From: a virus
Length of the DNA: 64,000 bases
Reading direction: 5' to 3' (one strand)
IMG/VR virus record: IMGVR_UViG_3300034101_003479
Coordinates: 21,871-85,870 of that record
Shown here: piece after piece, positions 21,530 through 64,000 of the stretch
Position numbering within the stretch: position 1 is the first letter of the stretch
Layout: each line of letters opens with the position of its first letter
The notes under the pieces: generated by a model
Databases searched by the model: none
What the model was told of the DNA's origin: nothing
The model's input: the letters and a program-made list of their open reading frames with translations, nothing else
Position numbers and translations under genes: made by a program

Positions 21530-21964
21530 TTAAATGTCTTTTAGTTGTGCTGCGATCCAGTTTATTTTTATGGATCCCGTGTAGGCTAGACTTGTTGTTA
21601 CATAAATCTTGCCATTTAACGTATTTGGTGAAACTACTGCTGCTACTGAAACCGTTCCCATTTTTGAAGTTAAAGCTTCTCCAACAGAGGCAGTAAATGA
21701 TATATCAACAGCGGGACTAAATGAAGAGCTAAATGTAACTGCATGGGCAGCTGACGGCACATTTGCCTTGCCACTCAATGGGACTGTTTCTGTATCTGAG
21801 TCGACGATGGCAACTCTATTTGTTCCGCTAGAGTCTTTTGTAGCATTTAATAATGACTTTGATGTATTAAATACATTTGTTAGATTAGTTTGTAATTGAT
21901 TTAAATCATTTGGATCTAGTGGGGCACCCTCGTTAAAAGTTACCGACTTCCATGTCTCTGCCAT
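21530..21964 (-). CDS. Virion structural/tail tip protein
   Basis: The 144-residue protein begins WKSVTFNEGAPLDPNDLNQL, an opening I associate with phage baseplate and fibre proteins, followed by a helix and a Ser/Thr/Ala-rich beta domain. It is the last gene of the structural run before the replication module. Exact role unknown. Confidence 0.7.
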   Translation of the reverse strand: MAETWKSVTFNEGAPLDPNDLNQLQTNLTNVFNTSKSLLNATKDSSGTNRVAIVDSDTETVPLSGKANVPSAAHAVTFSSSFSPAVDISFTASVGEALTSKMGTVSVAAVVSPNTLNGKIYVTTSLAYTGSIKINWIAAQLKDI

Positions 21965-47694: not shown

Positions 47695-49281
47695 TTAGGC
47701 AGTCGTTCTTCCTTCACCTTTTGGATTTCTGGCCTCCCCAGAAATATCGGGGGAATTAGAGGATCTTTCCTGGGTTCTTTGTCTTGAGTTTCCAGCCTGG
47801 GCTCTTTGTTCTGCTGCAGCCTGTGGCTTTAATTCTACAACCTCGTCTCCGCCATCCATAGGAATCATTCCTTTTCTAATTCTTACTTCATTTGGAGTGA
47901 TTACCTGCATTCTTAAATATCTTTCGTCAATCTTAGACTGGGTATCTTCATCGGTTAAAGTTAATTCGTTAAACTTAAGCAATAACGCATCTGTTTTTTC
48001 TAATATTATTCTGTTGATTTTCTTTTCTAGAATATCTTGGGCTGGTCTGCATACCTGCTCTTTAAATGTCTTGTCTGCGTCTCTAGCAGAAGCCAAGCTT
48101 ATTCCTTCTGGGACACCAATTTTATTAATTGGAACTCTGTGTGCTAATAGTATTTCATCTCTATTTGATTTGCGATATTTTTCAAATGAGCCTTCTTGAT
48201 TTCCAGCTTCAATTGGCTCCATCTTAAATTCAACCTTAGAGTCCGAGGTGTCTGGGGGTAGGGGGACATACAGGGATCTGTGATTTTTACCTTTTAGTCC
48301 AACTTGGAAAAACTCAAGAAGCTTTCTTTCTGACTCTGGAGATAGCTTTGCTCCCTTTACTGTAATTATATATCTTGGGACCGCTTTATTTTCAAAGTAG
48401 TCTAAGTTATATTTTCCAGAAAATTCATTTCCAGCCATTGCTGTCTGAGCTGCAATGATATCTGGTATTCCATAATAGTTATTCATTGGTGTATACTTTT
48501 TTAAATGAATAATTTCATTTGGTCTTTCTAATCCACCATCAATTGGATTTGGAGTTTCTTGATCTCCAAAGTTACGGAAGTATACTGCCTTTCCGTAAAG
48601 CAATTGAATAAATCCATCACGCAATCTGCGAACACGCATTGTTTTAGATGGGATATGGCCTATGTATCCAATATTTCCAGCAACCGTTCTTCCTATTTCA
48701 ATATAGGCGTTTCCAGTTGCCTCTAGGTCTGTATATGCTTTAATTAGTGTTTCTGTAAAAGTTTCTTCTTCGTTCGTTTCCTCAAGCCAATTGTCTAAAT
48801 CTTGTCTTAGCTTGTTTAATTTTTTGCGAGCACGTTCTAGCTGCTTTGTATCAGATATGCTATCTAATGCATCATTTGCTTTTTTTGTTTCTACAAAAGA
48901 ATATCCTAGTCCAACAATATTAGCAACCTTTGCATTAATCGCTGCGTAGTTGTACGGTGATATCTCATAAATTTTTGATAAGTACTCTAGGTTATAAACT
49001 GGCTGAACAAGGTCAAACATAGCGTAGCCAGTAACCGCTTGCTGTAATAGGTTTTGCTGTGTTCCAGTTCCTTCTTGTCCAACAAGTCTCTTTTGAATAT
49101 CTCTTGAAACTTTTCTACGAAATGTTGTGCTAAGACCGCTTACCTTTTTTAACTCTTGTGCCTCTATGTTAAATGGGTCTGTGTCCACCACCACTTCTTT
49201 ATTGTTAAACTTAAACCAATCGGCTGAATTTGATATGTCAATAGTCTCTGGGCTTACGTCGTCATCGTTAATGAATTCCAT
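47695..49281 (-). CDS. Portal protein
   Basis: A 528-residue protein with the portal pattern: GYAMFDLVQPVYNLEYLSKI, a stem region ending AGNEFSGKYNLDYFENKAVP, then LLAHRVPINKIGVPEG and a Gln/Arg-rich C-terminus. It starts the head gene series upstream of the protease. Twelve copies would form the vertex channel for DNA. Confidence 0.93.
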   Translation of the reverse strand: MEFINDDDVSPETIDISNSADWFKFNNKEVVVDTDPFNIEAQELKKVSGLSTTFRRKVSRDIQKRLVGQEGTGTQQNLLQQAVTGYAMFDLVQPVYNLEYLSKIYEISPYNYAAINAKVANIVGLGYSFVETKKANDALDSISDTKQLERARKKLNKLRQDLDNWLEETNEEETFTETLIKAYTDLEATGNAYIEIGRTVAGNIGYIGHIPSKTMRVRRLRDGFIQLLYGKAVYFRNFGDQETPNPIDGGLERPNEIIHLKKYTPMNNYYGIPDIIAAQTAMAGNEFSGKYNLDYFENKAVPRYIITVKGAKLSPESERKLLEFFQVGLKGKNHRSLYVPLPPDTSDSKVEFKMEPIEAGNQEGSFEKYRKSNRDEILLAHRVPINKIGVPEGISLASARDADKTFKEQVCRPAQDILEKKINRIILEKTDALLLKFNELTLTDEDTQSKIDERYLRMQVITPNEVRIRKGMIPMDGGDEVVELKPQAAAEQRAQAGNSRQRTQERSSNSPDISGEARNPKGEGRTTA

Positions 49282-49680: not shown

Positions 49681-51411
49681 TTATGAGTTTTGTAGCACGA
49701 TCCAGTCATTGTTATATATATTTACTGAATTTTCTGACAGGCTTAGTGTTGATCCACTAGATTGATATTTTGATTTTTCTGTGTACATCTCGTAGTGGCT
49801 TTGAGCCATGCCAGCCCCCAAGACATAATCATATATTGTTACATATTGATATAAGGACTTCTCAGAGCCCTCCTGCCTGTAATTAAATACGATCTGCTCG
49901 GTTATTGGGTTGGTGAGGGCCAGGACTACATGGTGCAAATCCTTTGGCTTAAATATATTCGATATTTGTGTTTCAGATGTCCTGTTTACCCCATTTACAT
50001 AAAGGCCAGATATGTTGTTTTTTGTAATGCTTCCATTGCTAGACCATCTAAATTCTGTACCCTCGGCTGAAAGTAAAGAACCGCTTGAAATTGTATTTGG
50101 GGTATAAAAAAATTCTATCGTGGATACAGATTTTGATGTATTGAGATTAAAGCCAGAGTCAGAATCAACCAGTATTCCATTTAAGCTATTATTACTTAAA
50201 ATAGGATAAGCTTCTTCCCCAAAGTTTGCATCTAAATCTTCAATTTTTGAAATATAGGATCCGCCATTTTTAGAGTACAGTATTTGGGTATTATAAAAAT
50301 TAACTTCTAGGCCATGCAACTTAGGCACATATTTTGATGAGTCTGATGAGCTGATAACGATTCTTATGTAAAAGAACTTTTGATCACTAAATTCTGCATA
50401 CTTAAATTGAGGTATTGGTTCTCCATTTTTGCATTCCAAATATGTTGTGTCGTCTAAACTTGTATAAACGCTAATTCCATTTTGACCGCTCCAAAATATT
50501 CTTGAAGAGTCCATTGTGATACCAGAAGGCATAGAAATTATATCGTTTAAAATAACTTCTTTTGTTTCCTGAGTGTTTGTTTTTGACAACTCTATATAGT
50601 TTTCAGACCTATTTAAGTTTAAATCTTCATTTAAAAAATACTCCCAAGATTTATCTTTGGGATATGAAAAAGAAAAAGAATTTCTCATTGTGTTGTCGTA
50701 TATATAAAAGATTTCTCCGCCGTCTGGATAGGCTACCTGTATAGGCATAACCTTGTTATTGTCTAAAAAGTGAGAGTATATCTGTCTTTCAGGCAATCCG
50801 TATCTATAAACTGCAACGTTATTAATTAAAAATTTATCAAGTATATTTTCTGTTGGGCCAGACTTTAAAGATATATCTGTATTTGTAAATGGATTAGAGG
50901 GCATTATTTTGCTAACACAAAGAATACCATCTACATAAATAAATGCTTTATTTACGCTGTATGTACAAACTATGTGCAATGACTTATTAAAATTTGGAAC
51001 TGAATACTCTAAGTAATCTGTGTCCAGTCCAAAAAATATGTTACCGTTATCCCAAAAAATTCCTATATTATTTTCTTTGTCCGCAACTATCGGTGTAAGG
51101 TTGTCTGTTTCTATTTGTGGTAATATCCAGCACTCTATTGAAAAGTCATTGTCGCCATCATTAATATTTGCAAACCCGCCTTTTGCTGTTTGGCCGTAAT
51201 AGTCTTTGTCTAAAGAAAATGTAATACTAGAAGAGGAAGTTACTTTTGAAGAGTACGAGCTGCCACTAACAATTGGATTCTTGTTGTCCTTTGGTCCTGA
51301 ATAGGATCCATTATTCTGGCAGCCAGAATAGTCTACTGCTGTTGTGGAGCTATCGTCTAGCTTCCAAAAGCCAATTGGGCTATCTTTAAGAACCTTGTAG
51401 TAGTATGACAT
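49681..51411 (-). CDS. LamG/concanavalin-like virion surface protein
   Basis: The first ~215 residues are a LamG-type jelly roll: GFWKLDDSSTTAVDYSG, FSIECWILPQ, SLHIVCTYSVNKAFIYVDGI. The rest is beta-rich, with a second similar sheet near 420-530 (STIEFFYTPNTISSGS). Such domains bind carbohydrates. It lies between portal genes and the enzyme cluster and is a candidate host-binding protein. The ATG is leaderless behind TGGTATAAT. Confidence 0.82.
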   Translation of the reverse strand: MSYYYKVLKDSPIGFWKLDDSSTTAVDYSGCQNNGSYSGPKDNKNPIVSGSSYSSKVTSSSSITFSLDKDYYGQTAKGGFANINDGDNDFSIECWILPQIETDNLTPIVADKENNIGIFWDNGNIFFGLDTDYLEYSVPNFNKSLHIVCTYSVNKAFIYVDGILCVSKIMPSNPFTNTDISLKSGPTENILDKFLINNVAVYRYGLPERQIYSHFLDNNKVMPIQVAYPDGGEIFYIYDNTMRNSFSFSYPKDKSWEYFLNEDLNLNRSENYIELSKTNTQETKEVILNDIISMPSGITMDSSRIFWSGQNGISVYTSLDDTTYLECKNGEPIPQFKYAEFSDQKFFYIRIVISSSDSSKYVPKLHGLEVNFYNTQILYSKNGGSYISKIEDLDANFGEEAYPILSNNSLNGILVDSDSGFNLNTSKSVSTIEFFYTPNTISSGSLLSAEGTEFRWSSNGSITKNNISGLYVNGVNRTSETQISNIFKPKDLHHVVLALTNPITEQIVFNYRQEGSEKSLYQYVTIYDYVLGAGMAQSHYEMYTEKSKYQSSGSTLSLSENSVNIYNNDWIVLQNS

Positions 51412-51435: not shown

Positions 51436-52134
51436 TTAGTATCCGCCCACGTGAAATGTCTGTCCAGTTAGACTGTTTGATTTTTGATCAATCAAGATAT
51501 CTACTACGTCACAGACGTCTTCTGTTGTAAATATCTTATTGCTCAATGTTTGTCCAGAGCCAAATAGTATTCTGTTAAATGTATCATCAGAAAGGTGCTT
51601 TGTCATCTCTGTCCTAATCATGCCTGGTGCTATGCAGTTTGCTCTAATTGATGTCTCTCTTAAAACCTTAGCCAAAGATCTTGTATAGCCCTTTACCGCA
51701 TATTTGCTTGCTGCGTAAACAGAAATTTCTGAATTTGAATGAGCAGCTAGGCTACTTATATTTATAACTGGTGTATGAACTTTTCTATTCATAAGAGGTA
51801 TAAATGCTTGACAGGTGTTTATAACACCAATAATATTTGTCCCAAACAATGATTGAATTTCTTCAGCTGACATCTTAGTCCAATCAGCAGTAAAGAAATC
51901 TTGTCCCAGCCCAGCACAATTTATTAAACCGCTAACCGTTATGCCTTGAGATTTTATTTCATTTGCAATTTCGTTAATTGCTTTTTTATCTGAGACGTCT
52001 GCTTGATAGGTTTTAAACGGTGAACCGCTTTTTGGTATGTTTCTAGATATTCCTGAAACTTCGTATCCATTCTTTAAAAGCCTATTAACAATTGCATTGC
52101 CCATACCACTGCTAGACCCTGTAACTATAAACAT
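51436..52134 (-). CDS. Short-chain dehydrogenase/reductase (SDR)
   Basis: A full classical SDR of 232 residues: TGSSSGMG (5-12) for NAD(P), NCAG (72-75), Asn100, Ser127/128 and Tyr140-x3-Lys144 (YAASK). PGMIRTEM and FHVGGY complete the fold. It resembles FabG-type ketoreductases but the substrate cannot be told. It ends the enzyme cluster and its ATG overlaps the oxygenase stop as TAATG. Confidence 0.92.
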   Translation of the reverse strand: MFIVTGSSSGMGNAIVNRLLKNGYEVSGISRNIPKSGSPFKTYQADVSDKKAINEIANEIKSQGITVSGLINCAGLGQDFFTADWTKMSAEEIQSLFGTNIIGVINTCQAFIPLMNRKVHTPVINISSLAAHSNSEISVYAASKYAVKGYTRSLAKVLRETSIRANCIAPGMIRTEMTKHLSDDTFNRILFGSGQTLSNKIFTTEDVCDVVDILIDQKSNSLTGQTFHVGGY

Positions 52135-52787
52135 TATTCTGTCCCGTCTGAGTAGTATGCGTTTTTTCTATTGTGGTACCAGTTTGGCAAAGAGTATCTT
52201 GTTCCGCTTGTAACTGCGTCTACTTCATGAACGTATACAAAATTTGAAGGGAAAAACAGCAGGCTTCCAGCTTCTGGCTTGATGTCTATGCCTGCGTGAG
52301 GGAATCTAATATTTCCACCTTCATAATCATTATTTAAATACAAAAGAGCAGACAAGACTCTACTACTTATTCCATGATCAGAATGTGCTGGCAGGAATCC
52401 ACTTTCTTTATACTTTAAAAGATGCATTGTTTTTTCTCTAGACTTAATATTCTTTTCTGCGTATGGGTATAAAGAGAAATAATGCTGCAGACCTTTTTCT
52501 AGTCCATCGAAAAGGATTGAAGATATTTCAAATTGTTCTTGGTAAAACAAATCTGTTTTTTGAATGTCTTCTGGCTTTGGTAAAAACTTTTGCCAACAGA
52601 AAACTGTTTTTTCTTTATTACCATGGTCATAGTCCCATGCCTGCCATGGCTTTACAGATTCAGATCTATAGGAATCAGCATTACTTCTTTTTTCTTCTAG
52701 GTCTTCTATTTTGTTAATTAAATCTGCTGGGTTATCTATTATGTTTTTATAATAAACTGCCCCTAAAGCTAATTCTTCGTAATTCAT
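52134..52787 (-). CDS. Prolyl hydroxylase-type 2OG/Fe(II) oxygenase
   Basis: His135-x-Asp137 (LPAHSDHGISS), SALLYLNDDYEGGNIRFP, GSLLFFPSNF, His187 (YVHEVDAV) and Arg197 (GTRYSLPNW) form a complete P4Hc-type active site. The 217-residue length is usual for phage members. It directly follows a second, similar oxygenase, pointing to duplication. Substrate probably a protein side chain. Confidence 0.9.
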   Translation of the reverse strand: MNYEELALGAVYYKNIIDNPADLINKIEDLEEKRSNADSYRSESVKPWQAWDYDHGNKEKTVFCWQKFLPKPEDIQKTDLFYQEQFEISSILFDGLEKGLQHYFSLYPYAEKNIKSREKTMHLLKYKESGFLPAHSDHGISSRVLSALLYLNNDYEGGNIRFPHAGIDIKPEAGSLLFFPSNFVYVHEVDAVTSGTRYSLPNWYHNRKNAYYSDGTE

Positions 52788-53330
52788 TTAGCACCCCTCA
52801 AAATCTGGATCCATGAACTCTTTTTTTGTAGATTGCATATAAAGAGCCGTGAATCTATTACCACTTGTTATTTCTTTTACCCCGTGAATATAGTTAAAAC
52901 TATTGCCTGGGAAAAATATTGCTGAGTATTTCTTTGGCCTGTGCTCAAAAGATTGTCTTGGAAAATAAATCTCTCCGCCTTCATATTCATCATTTAAATA
53001 TATCACAGCGCTGTATTCGATAAAAGGCTCTTTTTCTATCGCATCAATATGTGGTGCTCCACTTTGGCCAGGATTCCAGAATGAACCAAAAGCTTTTGTA
53101 ACAATTACATCTTTTTCTAATTCAAAAAATTCTTTCTGTATCCTATTTGCATCGACTGCATATTTCTTTAATAGCGACATAACTGTTTTGTTATAAGGGA
53201 AGGCAGTACCGCCGTTTCTATCTTTATAGTATGATGGATACTCGTTTATCTCTGACGGCCTCTTCATCTCATTGATTAAAACATTTGCGTCTTCTTCTGT
53301 TATAAAGTCTTCTACTATTTTTATTAACAT
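52788..53330 (-). CDS. Prolyl hydroxylase-type 2OG/Fe(II) oxygenase
   Basis: A complete site: GAPHIDAIEK (His94, Asp96), AVIYLNDEYEGGEIYFP, AIFFPGNS, His149 (NYIHGVKE) and Arg159 (GNRFTALYM). It is 180 residues and shares the LND(D/E)YEGG block with its downstream neighbour. It abuts the glycosyltransferase gene (overlap one base), an arrangement that suggests hydroxylation followed by glycosylation. Confidence 0.9.
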   Translation of the reverse strand: MLIKIVEDFITEEDANVLINEMKRPSEINEYPSYYKDRNGGTAFPYNKTVMSLLKKYAVDANRIQKEFFELEKDVIVTKAFGSFWNPGQSGAPHIDAIEKEPFIEYSAVIYLNDEYEGGEIYFPRQSFEHRPKKYSAIFFPGNSFNYIHGVKEITSGNRFTALYMQSTKKEFMDPDFEGC

Positions 53331-54148
53331 TACCTAAGCTCCTTAACTTTATTAATATATCTTAAGCCGCCAATTTTATCAGTTTGAGATTGAGCTGGGT
53401 CATACGCAACATCGTTATCTTCAAACGGCAATTGCTCTATGTCTAAGCCAAAATGCTTTTTGACCTCATCCTTATACAGATCAACAAATTTATTATAATT
53501 ATGGTTTAAAGAAAACGGTGTATATTCTTTTTCTAGATCAGATCTATGTATAGATAAATACTCGTCTGGGAAGTTATACATCTTTATACCATTATTTATC
53601 ATATCTATCGAGATAGACTCTTCTTCTCCATTATATTTTAAGTATTTAGGATACTCTATCTTTTTAAAATCTTCAGTAAGTCCAAATAGAAAATTTCTAT
53701 CTATATATTTTATCTCATTAAACTCTTTTGATGGTGTTCTTGTTGCTGATAAATGGAACCAGTTCTTATTCTTTAACGAGACAGTAGAGTTTCCAGTTAG
53801 AATTGAATTTTTATTCTTTGATATGAAATCTATTGCATATTCGTCCCAATTTTGTATTAAGCTCAAGTCATCTTCAACCTGCATATAATATGTTTTATTT
53901 AAAATATTTAATGCCTGTTGCTTATACTCAATTGGGCTTTTAATTGAGTCCCATTTAACATAGTTGTATGAAGTAGAGTGATAAGATTCTGGCTCGGCAA
54001 AACCTCTTGTTCTATCCAAATTGTTTTGGTCTATGACATAGAAATACAAAATATTCTTTTTACTAGACTTTTCTTTTATTTCTTCTATTAAGTCTAATAG
54101 CTTTTTATTTTGATATGAGTATATACAAATTCCAATAGTGCTTGTCAC
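53330..54148 (-). CDS. GlcNAc transferase-like glycosyltransferase (GT60-like)
   Basis: The 272 residues start IGICIYSYQNKKLLDLIEEI, contain YMQVEDDLSLIQNWDEY (EDD at 92-94, WD at 101-102) and later KYNGEEESIS (GEE, 174-176) followed by YLSIHRSD. This order resembles the polypeptide GlcNAc transferases that glycosylate hydroxyproline of Skp1 in Dictyostelium. Family membership is from motif memory. Flanked on both sides by 2OG oxygenases. Confidence 0.75.
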   Translation of the reverse strand: MTSTIGICIYSYQNKKLLDLIEEIKEKSSKKNILYFYVIDQNNLDRTRGFAEPESYHSTSYNYVKWDSIKSPIEYKQQALNILNKTYYMQVEDDLSLIQNWDEYAIDFISKNKNSILTGNSTVSLKNKNWFHLSATRTPSKEFNEIKYIDRNFLFGLTEDFKKIEYPKYLKYNGEEESISIDMINNGIKMYNFPDEYLSIHRSDLEKEYTPFSLNHNYNKFVDLYKDEVKKHFGLDIEQLPFEDNDVAYDPAQSQTDKIGGLRYINKVKELR

Positions 54149-54789
54149 AGCAATGGTATCCAGTGTTGTGGTTCTGCTTTATTGGCAATTAAGCTTTTTA
54201 GTGGAACTATATCGTACGCAATAGTTACTCTAGGGCCTTCCCAGTCCCAGTCTCCCATTGCATGTGGGTGTCCCATTTCCGAGATAATCATTCTGTTATT
54301 CTTGTTATGATTTTCTACTTTGTTTCCAAAAACGCTATAATACGTAGTTGAAGGCTCTGCATTTACCGAATAGTAACCGTGAAAATAGGGGGCATAAGGG
54401 CCACCGTGATCATGCCAATCAAGCTTGCCACTATGATTGTAATTAATATTAAACCAACCCTGGACCATGTATCTTTGCTCTTCAAAGTTGACACCATAGT
54501 ACTCACAGGCTTCTTTAATAGTTTCCGATATATTCTTATACAGCTTATAAATAGACTCATGATAAAACTGAAAAACATTGTACTCTCTCCATTTTATTGT
54601 CGACACGCTATCGGATGATAGCCAGTGATCTCTTGGCGTAACCTTTGTTATTCCAGACAACTTAAGGTTTTCCATGTTAGCATATTGATTTTGCAAAAAC
54701 TCTGCAAGCTCTGGGAGATCGTTGTCTAGGTATCTCTCAAAAAACTTATGTTCTTTGCCTGTTGGCTGGTTCATATACATATTTTCCAT
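54145..54789 (-). CDS. 2OG/Fe(II) oxygenase-type protein (HxH form)
   Basis: A 214-residue protein with GWFNINYNHSGKLDWHDHGG (His126, Asp127, His128), YYSVNAEPSTTYY, EMGHPHAMGDW (His174, His176) and Arg187 in GPRVTIAYDI. It resembles the phage oxygenase family often annotated putative 2OG-Fe(II). It has a clear degenerate paralogue at 56964. ATGA-coupled to the glycosyltransferase. Confidence 0.8.
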   Translation of the reverse strand: MENMYMNQPTGKEHKFFERYLDNDLPELAEFLQNQYANMENLKLSGITKVTPRDHWLSSDSVSTIKWREYNVFQFYHESIYKLYKNISETIKEACEYYGVNFEEQRYMVQGWFNINYNHSGKLDWHDHGGPYAPYFHGYYSVNAEPSTTYYSVFGNKVENHNKNNRMIISEMGHPHAMGDWDWEGPRVTIAYDIVPLKSLIANKAEPQHWIPLL

Positions 54790-55548
54790 TTATATTTTCC
54801 CTCTATATTGTTTCCGTTGCCATATTATATTTTTATAATATGCATATATTAAAGATCTTCTTTTTTCGTCCTTGATTTGGTTTTGCTCTATATTGTCATT
54901 TGAATAATCTATTTCAAGAGACCATTCTTCTCTTTTAATAGGAATCATTTGAAATATAGGAGTTCCTTTAGGTATTATACCAATAAAGTTGCGTTTTAGG
55001 AAGAAGGACGTAAATACTGGGGTATGCCATAAATCTGAGTCTATGATTCCGCTCATTGTGGTAAATGGCAAGTCATGCCTATTTAACGGATGTGTTATTA
55101 ATAAAGAATATCCCTTTGGCGTTTCTGAGTACCAGTTAACCTTCCACCCATAATGCATTGGGTGATGTTGGGTGGGCACTGGGACATCTATCATCAATCT
55201 TTTATCTACTATCATATTATCGCCTTCCCAAGAAAGTACTGGGAAGCCATTCTTATCTTGACTTACATGAAGATCGTAGTCTAAGGTGTACATATATCCA
55301 GAAGTCAATGCATCAAAAAATGGCATACATAGCTTTGTCGAGGCTGCGCTTCCGTCGGTACCTCTGTCATTTACTGGGTATAGCTTGCTAATACTATTTG
55401 ATTTATGAAACTTAGATAGTTTTTTATACCAAGAAGGAATATGTCTTTTTGCTTCTTGTGGTTCATTAAAACAACTATAGTCTGTAAAGCTGTTTATGTC
55501 TGTAATGAAGGCTGGAGAGAACTTAACCCTTAGTTCTTTTTTTCTCAT
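54790..55548 (-). CDS. DUF6065-like protein, copy 1
   Basis: A 252-residue protein with the signatures TKLCMPFFDALTSGYMYTLD, SLLITHPLNRHDLPF, MSGIIDSDLWHTPVF and IGIIPKGTPIFQMIPIKREEW. I associate this with DUF6065, seen in phages with no known function. The copy at 56251 shares the same order. Beta-rich, possibly cupin-like, without obvious iron ligands. It overlaps the next gene by 26 bases. Confidence 0.75.
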   Translation of the reverse strand: MRKKELRVKFSPAFITDINSFTDYSCFNEPQEAKRHIPSWYKKLSKFHKSNSISKLYPVNDRGTDGSAASTKLCMPFFDALTSGYMYTLDYDLHVSQDKNGFPVLSWEGDNMIVDKRLMIDVPVPTQHHPMHYGWKVNWYSETPKGYSLLITHPLNRHDLPFTTMSGIIDSDLWHTPVFTSFFLKRNFIGIIPKGTPIFQMIPIKREEWSLEIDYSNDNIEQNQIKDEKRRSLIYAYYKNIIWQRKQYRGKI

Positions 55549-56254
55549 ACTCCCCTATAATTCTTTTAATTGTTTTCCTATCAGATTCTATTTGTATATC
55601 AAATAGGTAAGATCCTCTTTTTATTAAACCGCATATGTTATCTTCCATATGTTTATCAGATGTTGTAAAATAAAAATCAACAAAATTAGCTTCTTTTATT
55701 ATAACATTTTCATTTGTTTTTGTAAAATAATCTTCTTTTTCTATTGCTACAATAGAAGAATTTTCTAAGTTTGTTTTTACCGTATACTTTATATCCATGT
55801 CTAAAAACCATGGTATAAACATTTTAAAAACTCTATCGGACATAGGGTTTATTTTATCTATATTGTATATATTTGAAGATGGATAAAACTGTCTTAGCCA
55901 GCATTTATCCGTAGCATACAGCAAGCTATTTATTGGATTAGATTTAAATATTCCTTTGTGTCCCATCATTGGGTCTGCTATCTGTATTAATATGTCTGCA
56001 TAGTTACTATATCTTAAATAAATCTGAGTGTCTGAAATTTTTATAACTTCTGGTGGATCTGAAAAATTAGCAACATACATGTTGACTGGCTTAAGTATTG
56101 CTTTCTTGTATGCCTTATTGTTTTTTACACATGACCAATTTTTCCATTTTGGCAAAAGGTTAGAAAAATTAACTATTTGCTCAAAGCTCATGTTAGACAT
56201 CAAGCCCCAGGATTCTGACTCGAATGGGACCCTGTTAATTACTTTGGTGCTCAT
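55523..56254 (-). CDS. Possible divergent DUF6065-like protein
   Basis: The 243 residues lie between two DUF6065-like genes and share only the layout: N-terminal LLPKWKNWSC, a mid-protein VFKMFIPWFLDMDIKYTV and C-terminal DNICGLIKRGSYLFDIQIE, where the paralogues have GIIPKGTPIFQMIP. Homology is suspected, not certain. Confidence 0.6.
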   Translation of the reverse strand: MSTKVINRVPFESESWGLMSNMSFEQIVNFSNLLPKWKNWSCVKNNKAYKKAILKPVNMYVANFSDPPEVIKISDTQIYLRYSNYADILIQIADPMMGHKGIFKSNPINSLLYATDKCWLRQFYPSSNIYNIDKINPMSDRVFKMFIPWFLDMDIKYTVKTNLENSSIVAIEKEDYFTKTNENVIIKEANFVDFYFTTSDKHMEDNICGLIKRGSYLFDIQIESDRKTIKRIIGEYEKKRTKG

Positions 56255-56982
56255 TTATATGTTTTCTTTTTCCAAAACTTCATCCTGTATCCATTTTGAA
56301 AAACTGATCTTACACCTAAGTTCTTTTCTTTTATCATAAAATCAGAATCTTTTTCTTTATTAATAGAGCTTTGCCAGTCATCTCTTTTAAATGGAATGAC
56401 CTGCATAATTGGAGTCCCCTGCTTAATAATTCCCTTAAATCCCTTTTTAACAAAAAAAGATAAATATCCATCAGAAGGATATTCGTCTGTATCTATTACC
56501 CCTGGGACCGCCTTGATAGGAGAATCTTCTCCGTGCATAGGAGCAACAAATAAAGAGCTGTATCCTGTTTCTGTTTGAACCAACCACATTGGGTGTATCC
56601 TCACAACCTCTGGGTGAAAGTAATCTGGTATCGGGTACTTGGCCATTTGTTCTTTTAAATGGTTTGCAACAAGGTGTTGCTGCATTCCCATTATATCCGA
56701 AGTTAGCTGAACATGTAGCTTTTCGCCTGTTGCATCTATTGATATGTCTGCTGGGCACTTTAGGTAGTAGCCGAATGTCATTGCATCAAATACCGACTGA
56801 CATTTTTTAACTGTAAGCATCATTGTTCCACTATAGACATTTTGATCATTATTTAAATGGCTTTCTTGTGACTTCCACCACTCTGGTATTGCCGATACGA
56901 CACTAACTGGCTCTGGAAATACCTTACTATATAGTCTAAATTTTGGAATAAACTCTATATTAATCATGAAAGCGGTATCCAT
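56251..56982 (-). CDS. DUF6065-like protein, copy 2
   Basis: The motifs SAIPEWWKSQ, VKKCQSVFDAMTFGYYLKCP, VPGVIDTDEYPSDGYLSFF and KGIIKQGTPIMQVIPFKRDDW line up with the copy at 54790, so the pair are paralogues. Function unknown. ATGA-coupled to the divergent neighbour. Confidence 0.75.
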   Translation of the reverse strand: MDTAFMINIEFIPKFRLYSKVFPEPVSVVSAIPEWWKSQESHLNNDQNVYSGTMMLTVKKCQSVFDAMTFGYYLKCPADISIDATGEKLHVQLTSDIMGMQQHLVANHLKEQMAKYPIPDYFHPEVVRIHPMWLVQTETGYSSLFVAPMHGEDSPIKAVPGVIDTDEYPSDGYLSFFVKKGFKGIIKQGTPIMQVIPFKRDDWQSSINKEKDSDFMIKEKNLGVRSVFQNGYRMKFWKKKTYK

Positions 56983-57527
56983 TTCTGATAGTACTGTCTG
57001 TAGAGATACTCTAGGGGAGAAATATTAAAAGATAGCATTACGAAATCATTGCTTATTTGATTAAATAATATCTTTGCTGATGACTCCAGGAATATTAATT
57101 GTCCAGGTACTAGATCAACTTTTTCATCATTAATAAACATTTCATCGTTATTTGACGACAATATATAAAACCCTACAAATGTTGTTTTATAGTTTGGGGC
57201 AAAGTTTACATATGTATTTAATGGAACAGTTTCGTTTTTAACTATATTCCCTAATAGGTAAAAATAGTTTCTTTCAAAATTAACATTTGACTCTCTGCAA
57301 AATTCTTTTGCAATGTCGTTAATTTCTTTATACAGAATATGTATATTTCTACTATACATTGAAAAAAAGTTAAAGGTTCTATAATCAATTAGTGATACTT
57401 TTTTAGGCTTAAATCCAAGCTTTAGCCCAGGATTAAACTTGTACACATACTCATGCATTTCCGCAAGCATTCTATTGTATTCGGATAGCAAAGTTTTATT
57501 GTTTATGTTATTAATATTTTTTATCAT
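56964..57527 (-). CDS. Degenerate paralogue of the 54145 oxygenase
   Basis: The 187-residue protein aligns by eye with the 54145 protein: NFFSMYSRNIHILYKEINDI against NVFQFYHESIYKLYKNISET, VNFERNYFYLLGN against VNFEEQRYMVQGW, and a shared C-terminal KWIPLS/HWIPLL. The metal-ligand segments are gone: no HDH and no HPH. It would be a non-catalytic partner or pseudo-enzyme. The frame is intact and coupled, so it is not a simple pseudogene. Confidence 0.75.
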   Translation of the reverse strand: MIKNINNINNKTLLSEYNRMLAEMHEYVYKFNPGLKLGFKPKKVSLIDYRTFNFFSMYSRNIHILYKEINDIAKEFCRESNVNFERNYFYLLGNIVKNETVPLNTYVNFAPNYKTTFVGFYILSSNNDEMFINDEKVDLVPGQLIFLESSAKILFNQISNDFVMLSFNISPLEYLYRQYYQKWIPLS

Positions 57528-58158
57528 TTGGCTCCCAAACGCTCATGGAATGAAACAGGGCAGGAAAAACAGGGTCTTTATATATTACTAAGTCTGCTGG
57601 CATATTTATCTGTGGCAGTTCTCCTGGAGTCATCCCGCCCTTAACTACCTTTTCTGCTTTTTTGCCAGTCAAGTTAAACCTTTTTTTGGCTGAAGCTGCT
57701 ACCATATTTAATCCGCTTAAAGCTACTGCTTGTGTGCCTTGGGTATATCCTGGACCAAGTCTAGGTAATATATTAAAAAAACTACACCATATTGGATAGC
57801 CAATAAGAGATAGAGACTCCATATATTTCTTTTTTCTATGAAGCGGGCTTGTATAAAACCTATCTGTTATTGCAGTATAATGATCTTTATCGTATCCGTC
57901 TATAATAATTGTAGCCCATGAAACTGGATAGTCATTATTAATAAATCCAGACATTACAATAGTGCCAGACTCGTTATCTGTATTTTTATACAAGCATTCT
58001 ATTGCTTGAGAATTACCTTTATCTGTAAATACAGTGTATTGAGCCCAGGTTCCTTCTATATACTTAGGATACCTTCTAAAGCTTGGTATAGGTTTTCCAT
58101 CAAAATATTTAGCACCAGAAATGCCCATTCTATGTGCTTTTTTTAATTTTTCAAACAA
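57511..58158 (-). CDS. Unknown protein, first gene of the enzyme cluster
   Basis: 215 residues, starting MFEKLKKAHRMGISGAKYFD. A beta-rich centre (YTVFTDKGNSQAIECLYKN; YPVSWATIIIDGYDKDHYTA) and helix HRKKKYMESLSLIGYPI are loosely reminiscent of acyltransferase folds, but no acetyl-CoA loop is clear. It overlaps the next gene by 17 bases and precedes the oxygenase cluster. Confidence 0.65.
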   Translation of the reverse strand: MFEKLKKAHRMGISGAKYFDGKPIPSFRRYPKYIEGTWAQYTVFTDKGNSQAIECLYKNTDNESGTIVMSGFINNDYPVSWATIIIDGYDKDHYTAITDRFYTSPLHRKKKYMESLSLIGYPIWCSFFNILPRLGPGYTQGTQAVALSGLNMVAASAKKRFNLTGKKAEKVVKGGMTPGELPQINMPADLVIYKDPVFPALFHSMSVWEPNDKKY

Positions 58159-58170
58159 GTTAATTCCTGA

Positions 58171-59478
58171 CTACTGTTGGTCTTGAGAATCTCTCCATTG
58201 TTGATACATTGCGTCTAGCTTATCGCTAAATGTTTCGTCGCTAGAAGTTAACACGTTTGGATCATCTATTGCTCTGTAAGAGTCGTGTACTAATGCGTTG
58301 TCTGTAAAGAATACATCGTATGGTTCAACGTCAATTGAAACCAAAAGTTCTCTCTGATCTGTAATCTTGTAGTCTGTAATTGCCACCCAGTCTGACTCTG
58401 ATGGTGAGAAGATTAAATCTGTCTCTAAAACCTCTGCAGAAGGCTGGAATTGAATCTCGTTGTTTCTTTTAATTAAAACAAAGTGTTGCTTTGAGTACTT
58501 ATTTCCATTAATAACAACAGCACCCTCTTGAGAAATTCTTGCTGCCATTGCAACAATAGTTGTTTCTACATCCTGAGATATACTTGCGCTATTTGAAGAC
58601 CAATTTTGTAAATACTCTAATATTGCTGTATTCGAAACATCAATACCTTCGATATTTGCAGAGTAAAGAACATCTCCTACGCTCAAATTGTGAGCTAGAA
58701 TTAGTCCCTCTGGCACCTTAGACTTAATAATTGTTTCTGCTCCTACCGACTTAGGAGTAAACCCAAATGGTGTAAACCCGAATGGAGTAAACCCAAATGG
58801 TGTAAACCCGAATGGTGTAAATCCGAATGGAGTGAACCCAAATGGGGTAAATCCGAATGGTGAGAAGCTAAATGGTGTTGTGGTAATTTGATTTGAATTA
58901 GAGCTATATGAAGAAAACCCGTTATCATTTTGAGCTCTTACTCTAATGGTTTGGGCTTCGTTTCCATTTTCAGAAACATTTGCAGAGAATGTATTTGCAT
59001 TGTATGAGTAAGTATCATTTTCATGATCAATTAAAGAATAGCCTGTGATGCCCTTTCCACCGTTTGATGATGGTGCTGACCAGGATACTGCGTTTGTTTC
59101 TGCTCCGTTATTTGAGAGACTTGGGGCATTTGGTGTACTTGGGACAGTTGTTGCTGTAATTGAATTACTTGCATCTGAAGGAACTGAGTTTCCTACTGCA
59201 TTTGTAGCTATAACTGTAAATGTATAGCCAGTTGTAGACTGTAGACCTTCTACTGTAATAGGAGAAGCAGATCCAGAGCCAGTGTAGTTTCCTGGATTTG
59301 ATGTGACTGTATATGAAGTAGCTGGTGGAGAATCTACACTCATTGTAAATGATACGGATGCAGCTCCATTATTAAACGGTCTATTTGTTCCTATATCTGT
59401 TGCTGTTCCTATAATTGGCTTAAATGGCTCTAAAAAGTCATTAGCCGATTGGCTCATTCTACCTGCTTGCTTTGACAT
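58171..59478 (-). CDS. Virion protein: fibronectin domains, TPFGF repeat, Hint-like domain
   Basis: Residues 35-200 are two fibronectin III-like domains (SYTVTSNPGNYTGSG; GYTFTVIATNAVGNSVP). Residues 201-242 are a proline-aromatic repeat, TPFGF six times plus variants. A Hint (intein/hedgehog) pattern follows: Ser244-VGAETII, HNLSVGDVLYS (263-273), YSKQHFVLI (His332), SIDVEPYDVFF and ALVHD-S (396-400). In inteins the last pair is His-Asn followed by Ser, Thr or Cys; here it is His398-Asp399-Ser400. A 36-residue tail remains. Probably a fibre or surface protein; splicing or cleavage is only inferred. Confidence 0.8.
   Translation of the reverse strand: MSKQAGRMSQSANDFLEPFKPIIGTATDIGTNRPFNNGAASVSFTMSVDSPPATSYTVTSNPGNYTGSGSASPITVEGLQSTTGYTFTVIATNAVGNSVPSDASNSITATTVPSTPNAPSLSNNGAETNAVSWSAPSSNGGKGITGYSLIDHENDTYSYNANTFSANVSENGNEAQTIRVRAQNDNGFSSYSSNSNQITTTPFSFSPFGFTPFGFTPFGFTPFGFTPFGFTPFGFTPFGFTPKSVGAETIIKSKVPEGLILAHNLSVGDVLYSANIEGIDVSNTAILEYLQNWSSNSASISQDVETTIVAMAARISQEGAVVINGNKYSKQHFVLIKRNNEIQFQPSAEVLETDLIFSPSESDWVAITDYKITDQRELLVSIDVEPYDVFFTDNALVHDSYRAIDDPNVLTSSDETFSDKLDAMYQQWRDSQDQQ
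58753..58875 (-). repeat. 15-base tandem repeat encoding TPFGF
   Basis: About eight near-identical 15-base units (for example GGTGTAAACCCGAAT on the plus strand) with silent changes. They encode the flexible linker in the Hint-containing protein. Confidence 0.95.
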
Positions 59479-62952: not shown

Positions 62953-63016
62953 TTAAGTTCACATATCCCCTAATTGTTTTGGTGGGGTTTTGAAAGGACC
63001 CCCTACCTTTATTTAA

Positions 63017-64000
63017 TTATTTAATTAATGTTGCTACTACTGTTACTGTTGTATTTGCATGAACAGTGTCTACTTCTATTGCAAGATTTCCATTTAGGTA
63101 AGATGCTCCAACTGATCCAAGAGACCCGTTGGTTCCGACCATACCAAATTCTGTTATTGCTATATTGTTTGATGAATCTGTAGTTAGTAGAACTTCTGAA
63201 ATCTGTGAGTGTGTTGCTGTTGCAAACTTAACCCAAGCTTTTGCTGTTCCGTAGTCTGACTTAGACCATGACATTACTGATGATCCTGTTTGAGCTGTAG
63301 GAACTACTCCTTGAGCTGCTCTTTGGGAGCTAAGATCATTTATGTTTAAAGCTGTAAACTCTGTTGTTCCGTCTAGAACATCGTCAAGTGCTGCTTGAGC
63401 TGTGGCTTCTGCTGCAGACTGTGCTGCGTTTGCCTTGCTTGTTGCATCTGCTGATGCAGTTGCTTCTGCTGCAGTCTGTGCAGCGTTAGCCTTTGAAGTA
63501 GCATCTGCTGAGGCTGTAGCCTCTGCTGCAGTCTGTGCTGCTGATGCATAACCCTGTGCTGCTGTGTCAAGATCAGAAATTTCTGAGTTAACATATGATG
63601 TGTCAGCCTTTGTTCCAACTAATGTTGTGAGGTTTGTAATTGTATCTGGTGAATCACCAAGTGCTTCTGCCAGTTCGTTAAGTGTGTTTAAAAGTTCTGG
63701 TGCTGAATCAACAAGTGCTGAAACTGCTCCATCTGTGTAAAGGTTTGCTGCTGCTTGTGCTGCGTTTGCCTTAGAAGTAGCGTCTAGTGCTGCTGCAGTG
63801 ATTGCTGCTGCTTCTGCAGCGTTAGCCTTTGATGTTGCATCTGCTGATGCAGTTGCTTCTGCTGCTGCTTGTGCTGCGTTAGCCTTAGAAGTAGCATCGG
63901 TTGCTGCTGCAGACTGTGCTGCGTTTGCCTTGCTTGTTGCATCTGCTGATGCAGTTGCTTCTGCTGCAGTCTGTGCAGCGTTAGCCTTTGAAGTAGCATC
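63017..64000 (-). CDS. Alanine-repeat tail fibre, 5' end cut by window
   Basis: One frame runs from the window edge to TAA at 63017 (at least 327 residues). It consists of repeats of about 19 residues (ASADATSKANAAQTAAEAT), a fibre motif DSAPELLNTLNELAEALGD, another block of repeats and a C-terminal beta domain (KAWVKFATATHSQISEVLL). The alanine-rich repeats should form a trimeric coiled-coil shaft. Gln/Leu-rich readings of this region in other frames are artefacts. Confidence 0.88.
   Translation of the reverse strand, partial: DATSKANAAQTAAEATASADATSKANAAQSAAATDATSKANAAQAAAEATASADATSKANAAEAAAITAAALDATSKANAAQAAANLYTDGAVSALVDSAPELLNTLNELAEALGDSPDTITNLTTLVGTKADTSYVNSEISDLDTAAQGYASAAQTAAEATASADATSKANAAQTAAEATASADATSKANAAQSAAEATAQAALDDVLDGTTEFTALNINDLSSQRAAQGVVPTAQTGSSVMSWSKSDYGTAKAWVKFATATHSQISEVLLTTDSSNNIAITEFGMVGTNGSLGSVGASYLNGNLAIEVDTVHANTTVTVVATLIK
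63409..64000 (-). repeat. Long direct repeats in the alanine-rich fibre gene
   Basis: A stretch of about 97 bases at 63409-63505 recurs exactly at 63904-64000, where the window ends, so the true repeat may be longer. Shorter 57-base variants fill the rest. The near identity of the DNA, not just protein, points to recent duplication or recombination. Confidence 0.9.

Follow-up and report, generated by a model that had tools for sequence, protein, structure and literature searches.

Background

To our knowledge, most described phage Hint domains are inteins that reside in genes of replication and packaging. Class 3 inteins are recognized by Trp at B:12, Cys at F:4, and Thr at G:5, Hedgehog (Hog) domains combine a Cys at position 1 with a sterol-recognition region after the Hint domain, and in many inteins an Asp of block F helps to activate residue 1. 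Class 1 inteins are in-frame inserts with empty alleles in which the exteins are joined, and they end on Asn, rarely on Gln or Asp. The terminal Asp is a rare known variant (PMC7664689, PMC4031507), and inteins ending in this way are reported to splice (PMC4031507). Bacterial intein-like (BIL) domains stand at the end of variable, repeat-bearing proteins and carry no homing endonuclease; the A-type ends on His-Asn, and the B-type, with variable flanks, keeps the intein motifs other than the C-terminal one, which it lacks, and cleaves on its N-terminal side (PMC7765530). Annotations of Hint domains already exist for phage tail proteins, for instance in the virion proteins of Erwinia, Dickeya, and Yersinia jumbo phages (phrog_38766), where the record of the example from Erwinia phage vB_EamM_Y3 (YP_009794284.1) notes 'contains intein domain'.

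Gene layout and genomic setting

The window analyzed here is a stretch of 64,000 nucleotides (positions 21,871 to 85,870) from the IMG/VR record IMGVR_UViG_3300034101_003479, which belongs to an uncultured virus and is 85.9 kb long. A gene on the minus strand (58171..59478) encodes a 435-aa protein of the layout fn3-(TPFGF)n-Hint, which is shared by homologs in IMG/VR. An earlier note on this DNA had described the same open reading frame, with these coordinates and this strand, as a phage surface protein in which a Hint domain follows fibronectin domains and a TPFGF linker, and this domain layout holds. A short N-terminal stretch precedes a fibronectin type III domain (residues 40–104, 59167..59361, minus strand; Pfam PF00041, E 3.2e-9, two stretches), a second fn3-like domain (about residues 106–199), and a TPFGF pentapeptide array (residues 211–243, 58750..58848, minus strand), the repeats proper of which lie at residues 211–240 and differ in number among relatives. 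In four related loci (L080–L083), an FFPP-type array rich in Phe and Pro (about residues 90–130) stands before the Hint domain in place of TPFGF. The array of the window protein ends on Lys243 (58750..58752), which is residue –1 of the predicted Hint domain (residues 244–399, 58282..58749, minus strand), and the domain is followed by a 36-aa C-terminal tail (58174..58281, minus strand) that begins with Ser400 (+1). The motifs named in the earlier note are all in place, namely Ser244 (58747..58749) as position 1 and predicted N-terminal nucleophile, NLSVGD at residue 264, Ser329-x-x-His332 with His332 at block B position 10 (58483..58485), IDVEPYDVFF at residue 382, and His398-Asp399-Ser400, in which His398-Asp399 (58282..58287) forms the end of block G and Asp replaces the Asn of inteins. 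Block F position 4 is occupied by Ser381 (58336..58338; all of these codons are on the minus strand). The Hint domain is under purifying selection, with dN/dS of 0.04–0.12 against four relatives.

A neighbouring gene codes for a tail fibre of 1017 aa that contains an Mtd_N domain, and genes for the portal, a head protease, the tape measure, and minor tail proteins are found in the same region. From this place beside the Mtd_N tail fibre and the tail genes, the 435-aa protein is likely a virion protein. The layout resembles that of the jumbo-phage proteins in its C-terminal Hint domain, fibrous structural character, and short tail; the jumbo-phage domains differ by Cys1, a block F Asp, a His-Asn end, and Thr or Val at +1, and their proteins are collagen-like where the window protein has fn3-TPFGF and have no GNAT-like neighbour. 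Elsewhere in the window, the portal protein (47695–49281) is about 57% identical to portals of large Streptomyces phages although the G+C content of the window is only about 36%, the protein encoded beside it (49681–51411) has a Laminin_G_3 (concanavalin-like) domain, and an open-ended reading frame (63017–64000), rich in DATSKANAAQ-type repeats, probably encodes a coiled-coil protein of a fibre, truncated where the record ends.

Predicted fold of the domain

The domain was modelled with AlphaFold2 from an input alignment of 28 sequences, and the best model reached a pLDDT of 87.7 and a pTM of 0.84; among the five models (pLDDT 87.7, 77, 74, 65, and 65) only this one is very confident. When it was compared with the PDB using Foldseek, all 37 matches at E ≤ 1e-3 were Hint structures, headed by the BIL domain of C. 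thermocellum (2lwy; E 2.8e-6, TM 0.74 by target length). The fourth-ranked structure, the cysteine-less intein Aes123 PolB1 (9hth), also has Ser at position 1, but it ends on Asn (N159) and splices in a DNA polymerase; the same intein was the best match, in register, when a profile of the relatives was run against PDB sequences (E 0.15, not significant alone). A profile-profile comparison (hhalign) with the Erwinia jumbo-phage Hint domain (Cys1, His-Asn) gave 98.7%. Among viral predicted structures (BFVD), the nearest named entries were 'Hint domain containing protein', 'Fibronectin type III', and 'PASTA' from uncultured phages; the closest folds, A0A6J7WKC1 (uncultured Caudovirales) and others, bear automatic names only.

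Scans with Pfam and NCBIfam returned no Hint match for the window domain, nor did Pfam for the 28 relatives. Relatives match Hint models below cut-off, and PF14890 and PF07591 had no match over the whole 85.9-kb record. Phytochelatin_C and similar weak Pfam and NCBIfam matches did not reach cut-off, and we attributed them to chance. Because the fold prediction gives a Hint domain, we read the missing curated match as divergence. Structure prediction was a test that the earlier note had named as able to refute its reading, and here the model, the fold search, and the profile comparison agree, so that the Hint horseshoe fold of residues 244–399 is taken as established by prediction.

Homologs and active-site types

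Successive IMG/VR searches recovered sets of 33, 37, and 63 loci with large overlap, and a DNA-pattern scan for TPFGF gave 84 stretches, some of them new. A profile iterated over these loci and stretches yielded 84 usable domains (61 at < 93% identity), and a combined alignment with the Erwinia sequences was built on the HMM-seeded set. No relative was found in cellular genomes, and the family is therefore phage-only at this search sensitivity.

The three most conserved of about 158 columns are, in descending order, the His at B:10 (His332), the His at G:6 (His398), and residue 1 (Ser244), which is Ser or Cys in 84 of 84 domains without exception. A terminal Asp accompanies Ser1 in 49 domains, with Glu in one more; Asn accompanies Cys1 in 33, and a single further Cys1 domain has lost it. 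To the subtype of the window (K|S...HD|S, here the HD type) belong 41 domains, in all of which Lys243, Ser1, and His398-Asp399-Ser400 are invariant, and the [ST]xxH-type block B is kept with one Ala variant. A Lys at –1 is found in 41/41 HD-type domains vs. 0/8 of the other Ser1 domains. The further Ser1 types are S...FD followed by R, T, S, or G, one S...ME|S, and S...CYD|S. The Cys1 domains are of the types C...HN|K, in which the protein stops right after Lys, C...HN|T or V (Erwinia and relatives), and C...HN|I or Y. Asp399 is thus not an error, judging by its pairing with Ser1 in 49 domains and its invariance in the HD type, and the assignments of Ser to position 1 and Asp to the terminal position made in the earlier note were right.

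In a tree calculated with the catalytic columns masked, one branch (support 99/91) sets the Ser1/Asp domains apart. By this tree, Ser1/Asp vs. Cys1/Asn is one evolutionary switch that has been retained since; we therefore rejected repeated coevolution of the two residues, and the pairing does not count as repeated evidence. The idea that the terminal Asp substitutes for the block F Asp is likewise unsupported, as many Cys/Asn domains also have no block F Asp; block F position 4 is Ser, Thr, or Cys across the Ser1 clade and Asp in the Erwinia relatives. The YD types form a long branch nested within the HD clade (97/80), and they are without the Lys at –1, the penultimate His, and the GNAT-like neighbour, all together.

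Every member of the Ser1 clade has kept Ser1 and the B:10 His, whereas the FD, ME, and YD subtypes have lost the penultimate His and, in some cases, the +1 nucleophile, which suggests that the N-terminal half reaction is the part kept in this clade. The C...HNK types show the reverse, as their B:10 His is often Gln and His-Asn is retained. The tail ranges from one residue (HNK and stop) over 12–13 to 36 aa or more, and its sequence, like its length, differs strongly between types. Three syntenic homologs, L186 (268 aa), L213 (381 aa), and L182 (880 aa), end straight after the TPFGF array; no Hint reading frame was found near them, and the tail is absent as well.

Two further arrangements were observed. 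In L161, L176, L183, L188, and L211, a reading frame of roughly 190–228 aa directly follows Cys1/HNK Hint genes with slight overlap; these frames match the start of the Hint profile without the catalytic ends and are possibly a degenerate partner. In seven related phages, two HD-type Hint proteins are encoded about 5.5–6.2 kb apart. Applied to the window, this would put a second copy just beyond the end of the record at 64000 (region 62956–64000 and beyond), and its absence may be due merely to the record cut.

The GNAT-like neighbour

The gene at 57511..58158 (minus strand) encodes a 215-aa protein with a probable GNAT fold, assigned by AlphaFold2, Foldseek, and Pfam matches in relatives. Its model has a pLDDT of 72, Foldseek returned GNAT enzymes almost exclusively, the best at E 0.008, and Pfam Acetyltransf_1 is matched by 4/16 members of the family (best E 9.6e-4); in the window copy the GNAT motif A loop is degenerate. 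Members of this family immediately follow 27/40 HD-type Hint genes on the downstream side (about –72 to +6 bp) and 0/51 other genes, FD, YD, HN, and Hint-less types included. Judged by their size and layout, the remaining 13 HD genes resemble upstream second copies in phages that carry two; such pairs were directly seen in seven phages, and some of the exceptions are on short contigs. A functional partnership is suggested by this linkage, with the reservation that shared descent alone could hold the genes together. The neighbour and the invariant Lys at –1, together with the split between Ser/Asp and Cys/Asn domains, go beyond the earlier note.

A match to the gene downstream of the Erwinia Hint gene was rejected, as the two have no similarity, and no relative of the neighbour was found in the phage collection. 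Farther downstream (51436–56982), in an order kept in relatives, lie genes for a short-chain dehydrogenase, two 2OG-Fe(II) oxygenases, and the paralogous families 54145/56964 and 54790/56251, the latter DUF6065-like (phrog_7084); these genes, odd beside tail genes, are a possible protein-modifying set.

Proposed processing reaction and alternative explanations

The explanation that we prefer, and hold at just under an even call, is that the gene encodes a fibre-type virion protein whose C-terminal, intein-like Hint domain resembles B-type BIL domains and serves N-terminal processing, with release or attachment of the fibre, rather than splicing. Ser244 would attack the Lys243-Ser244 bond in an N-O acyl shift aided by Ser329 and His332, and the Lys243 ester formed would be hydrolysed or handed to another nucleophile. 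The fn3-TPFGF fibre part (residues 1–243) would in this way be released or attached without the Hint domain, and the adjacent GNAT-like protein would be a likely maturation partner. With Asp399 in place of Asn, C-terminal excision would be slow or absent, and N-terminal processing would give the main product.

We infer such activity, and the cleavage site, from several lines of comparison. In the Ser1 clade, N-terminal processing is favoured by the residue losses, the ends of the Hint-less homologs, and the variable tails; the array-terminal end of these homologs is the end that an N-terminal cut of the window protein would leave. A RadA intein in which the terminal Asn and the +1 residue were mutated is cleaved on its N-terminal side, and the reaction runs fastest when the –1 residue is the native Lys (PMC11842431). 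The earlier note had named bacterial intein-like and hedgehog-type domains together, and the best PDB fold is a BIL domain. Like BIL domains, the window domain closes a variable, repeat-bearing protein without a homing endonuclease, but it has Ser1 and a terminal Asp; its His398-Asp399 departs from the His-Asn end of the A-type, and its missing Asn and varying tail would agree with the B-type, yet all HD-type domains retain His-Asp-Ser. A Hog domain was rejected (Ser244, and only 36 residues after the Hint domain), and so was a class 3 intein, as Val334, Ser381, and Val397 stand at the aligned positions. Several points run counter to the preferred reading: Asp-ending inteins are reported to splice, the Ser1/Asp pairing goes back to a single switch, and one of the five fold models is very confident. 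The replacement of the block F Asp by Ser bears on how Ser244 would be activated, and the invariance of His398 and Ser400 in 41/41 HD-type domains is more than pure N-terminal cleavage needs, which leaves splicing, or a transfer using Ser400, as less likely routes.

Complete splicing, by which Ser244, Ser400, and Asp399 (through Asp cyclisation or another route) would excise residues 244–399 and join the fibre to the 36-aa tail, is unlikely in our view. The class 1 motifs are there (Ser244, Ser329-x-x-His332, His398, Ser400 at +1), with an Asp399 invariant in the HD type, and the combination of Ser1, [ST]xxH-type block B, penultimate His, terminal Asp, and +1 Ser is kept in 41 domains. It is shared in outline with Asp-ending class 1 inteins (Ser or Cys at position 1, TxxH-type block B, penultimate His, Asp, and a +1 nucleophile), and inteins ending on Asp or Gln can splice (Amitai et al. 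2004, as cited in PMC4031507). Such inteins interrupt host genes, whereas the window domain closes a virion-type protein with a short, variable tail. L186, L182, and L213 are Hint-less without a tail and are not joined exteins, tails vary strongly by type down to a single residue (HNK), and the sister Ser1/Asp subtypes have lost the penultimate His and the +1 Ser.

Little weight also goes to a catalytically dead Hint fold retained as a structural module for folding, trimerisation, or binding. Such a module would fit the replacement of both the terminal Asn and the block F Asp, the related subtypes in which the penultimate His is gone (FD, ME, YD) or the block B His has become Gln (HNK), and the existence of Hint-less homologs; the three most conserved columns are, however, the catalytic ones, and residue 1 is Ser or Cys throughout the family.

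A Hedgehog-like transfer, in which the Ser244 ester would be passed to an outside acceptor (a virion subunit, lipid, or sugar), possibly with GNAT-like help, we consider slightly less likely still. It would agree with the occurrence of the GNAT-like gene solely with HD-type Hint genes, with their Lys at –1, and with the YD types, which are without Lys, His, and neighbour jointly from within the HD clade. Against it, no acceptor-binding region is recognisable and the tail is short, the GNAT assignment is moderately confident, and the YD branch is long. Quite improbable is a two-gene module, a previously unknown use of Hint chemistry if true, in which the Hint oxyester at the invariant Lys-Ser junction would be resolved or modified by a dedicated GNAT-like partner (for instance through acylation of the junction lysine or by steering the transfer), and the fibre would thereby be covalently attached and not just cut.

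Significance

In the open-access literature, to which the search was confined, we found no description of a Ser1/Asp Hint variant or of its linkage to a GNAT-like gene, and both appear to be undescribed. Conservation of the whole active site, together with this linkage, points to a Hint domain that probably trims or attaches the fibre. Across a fairly large group of uncultured phages, the domain is a constant C-terminal component of fibre-type proteins, and its Ser/Asp, Ser/Phe-Asp, and Cys/Asn versions, along with the Hint-less homologs, form a natural mutation series for the question of the half reactions. If active, it would be a naturally occurring processing domain with Ser1 and a terminal Asp that protein engineers might use, and it would give these phages a protease-free means of fibre maturation or attachment.
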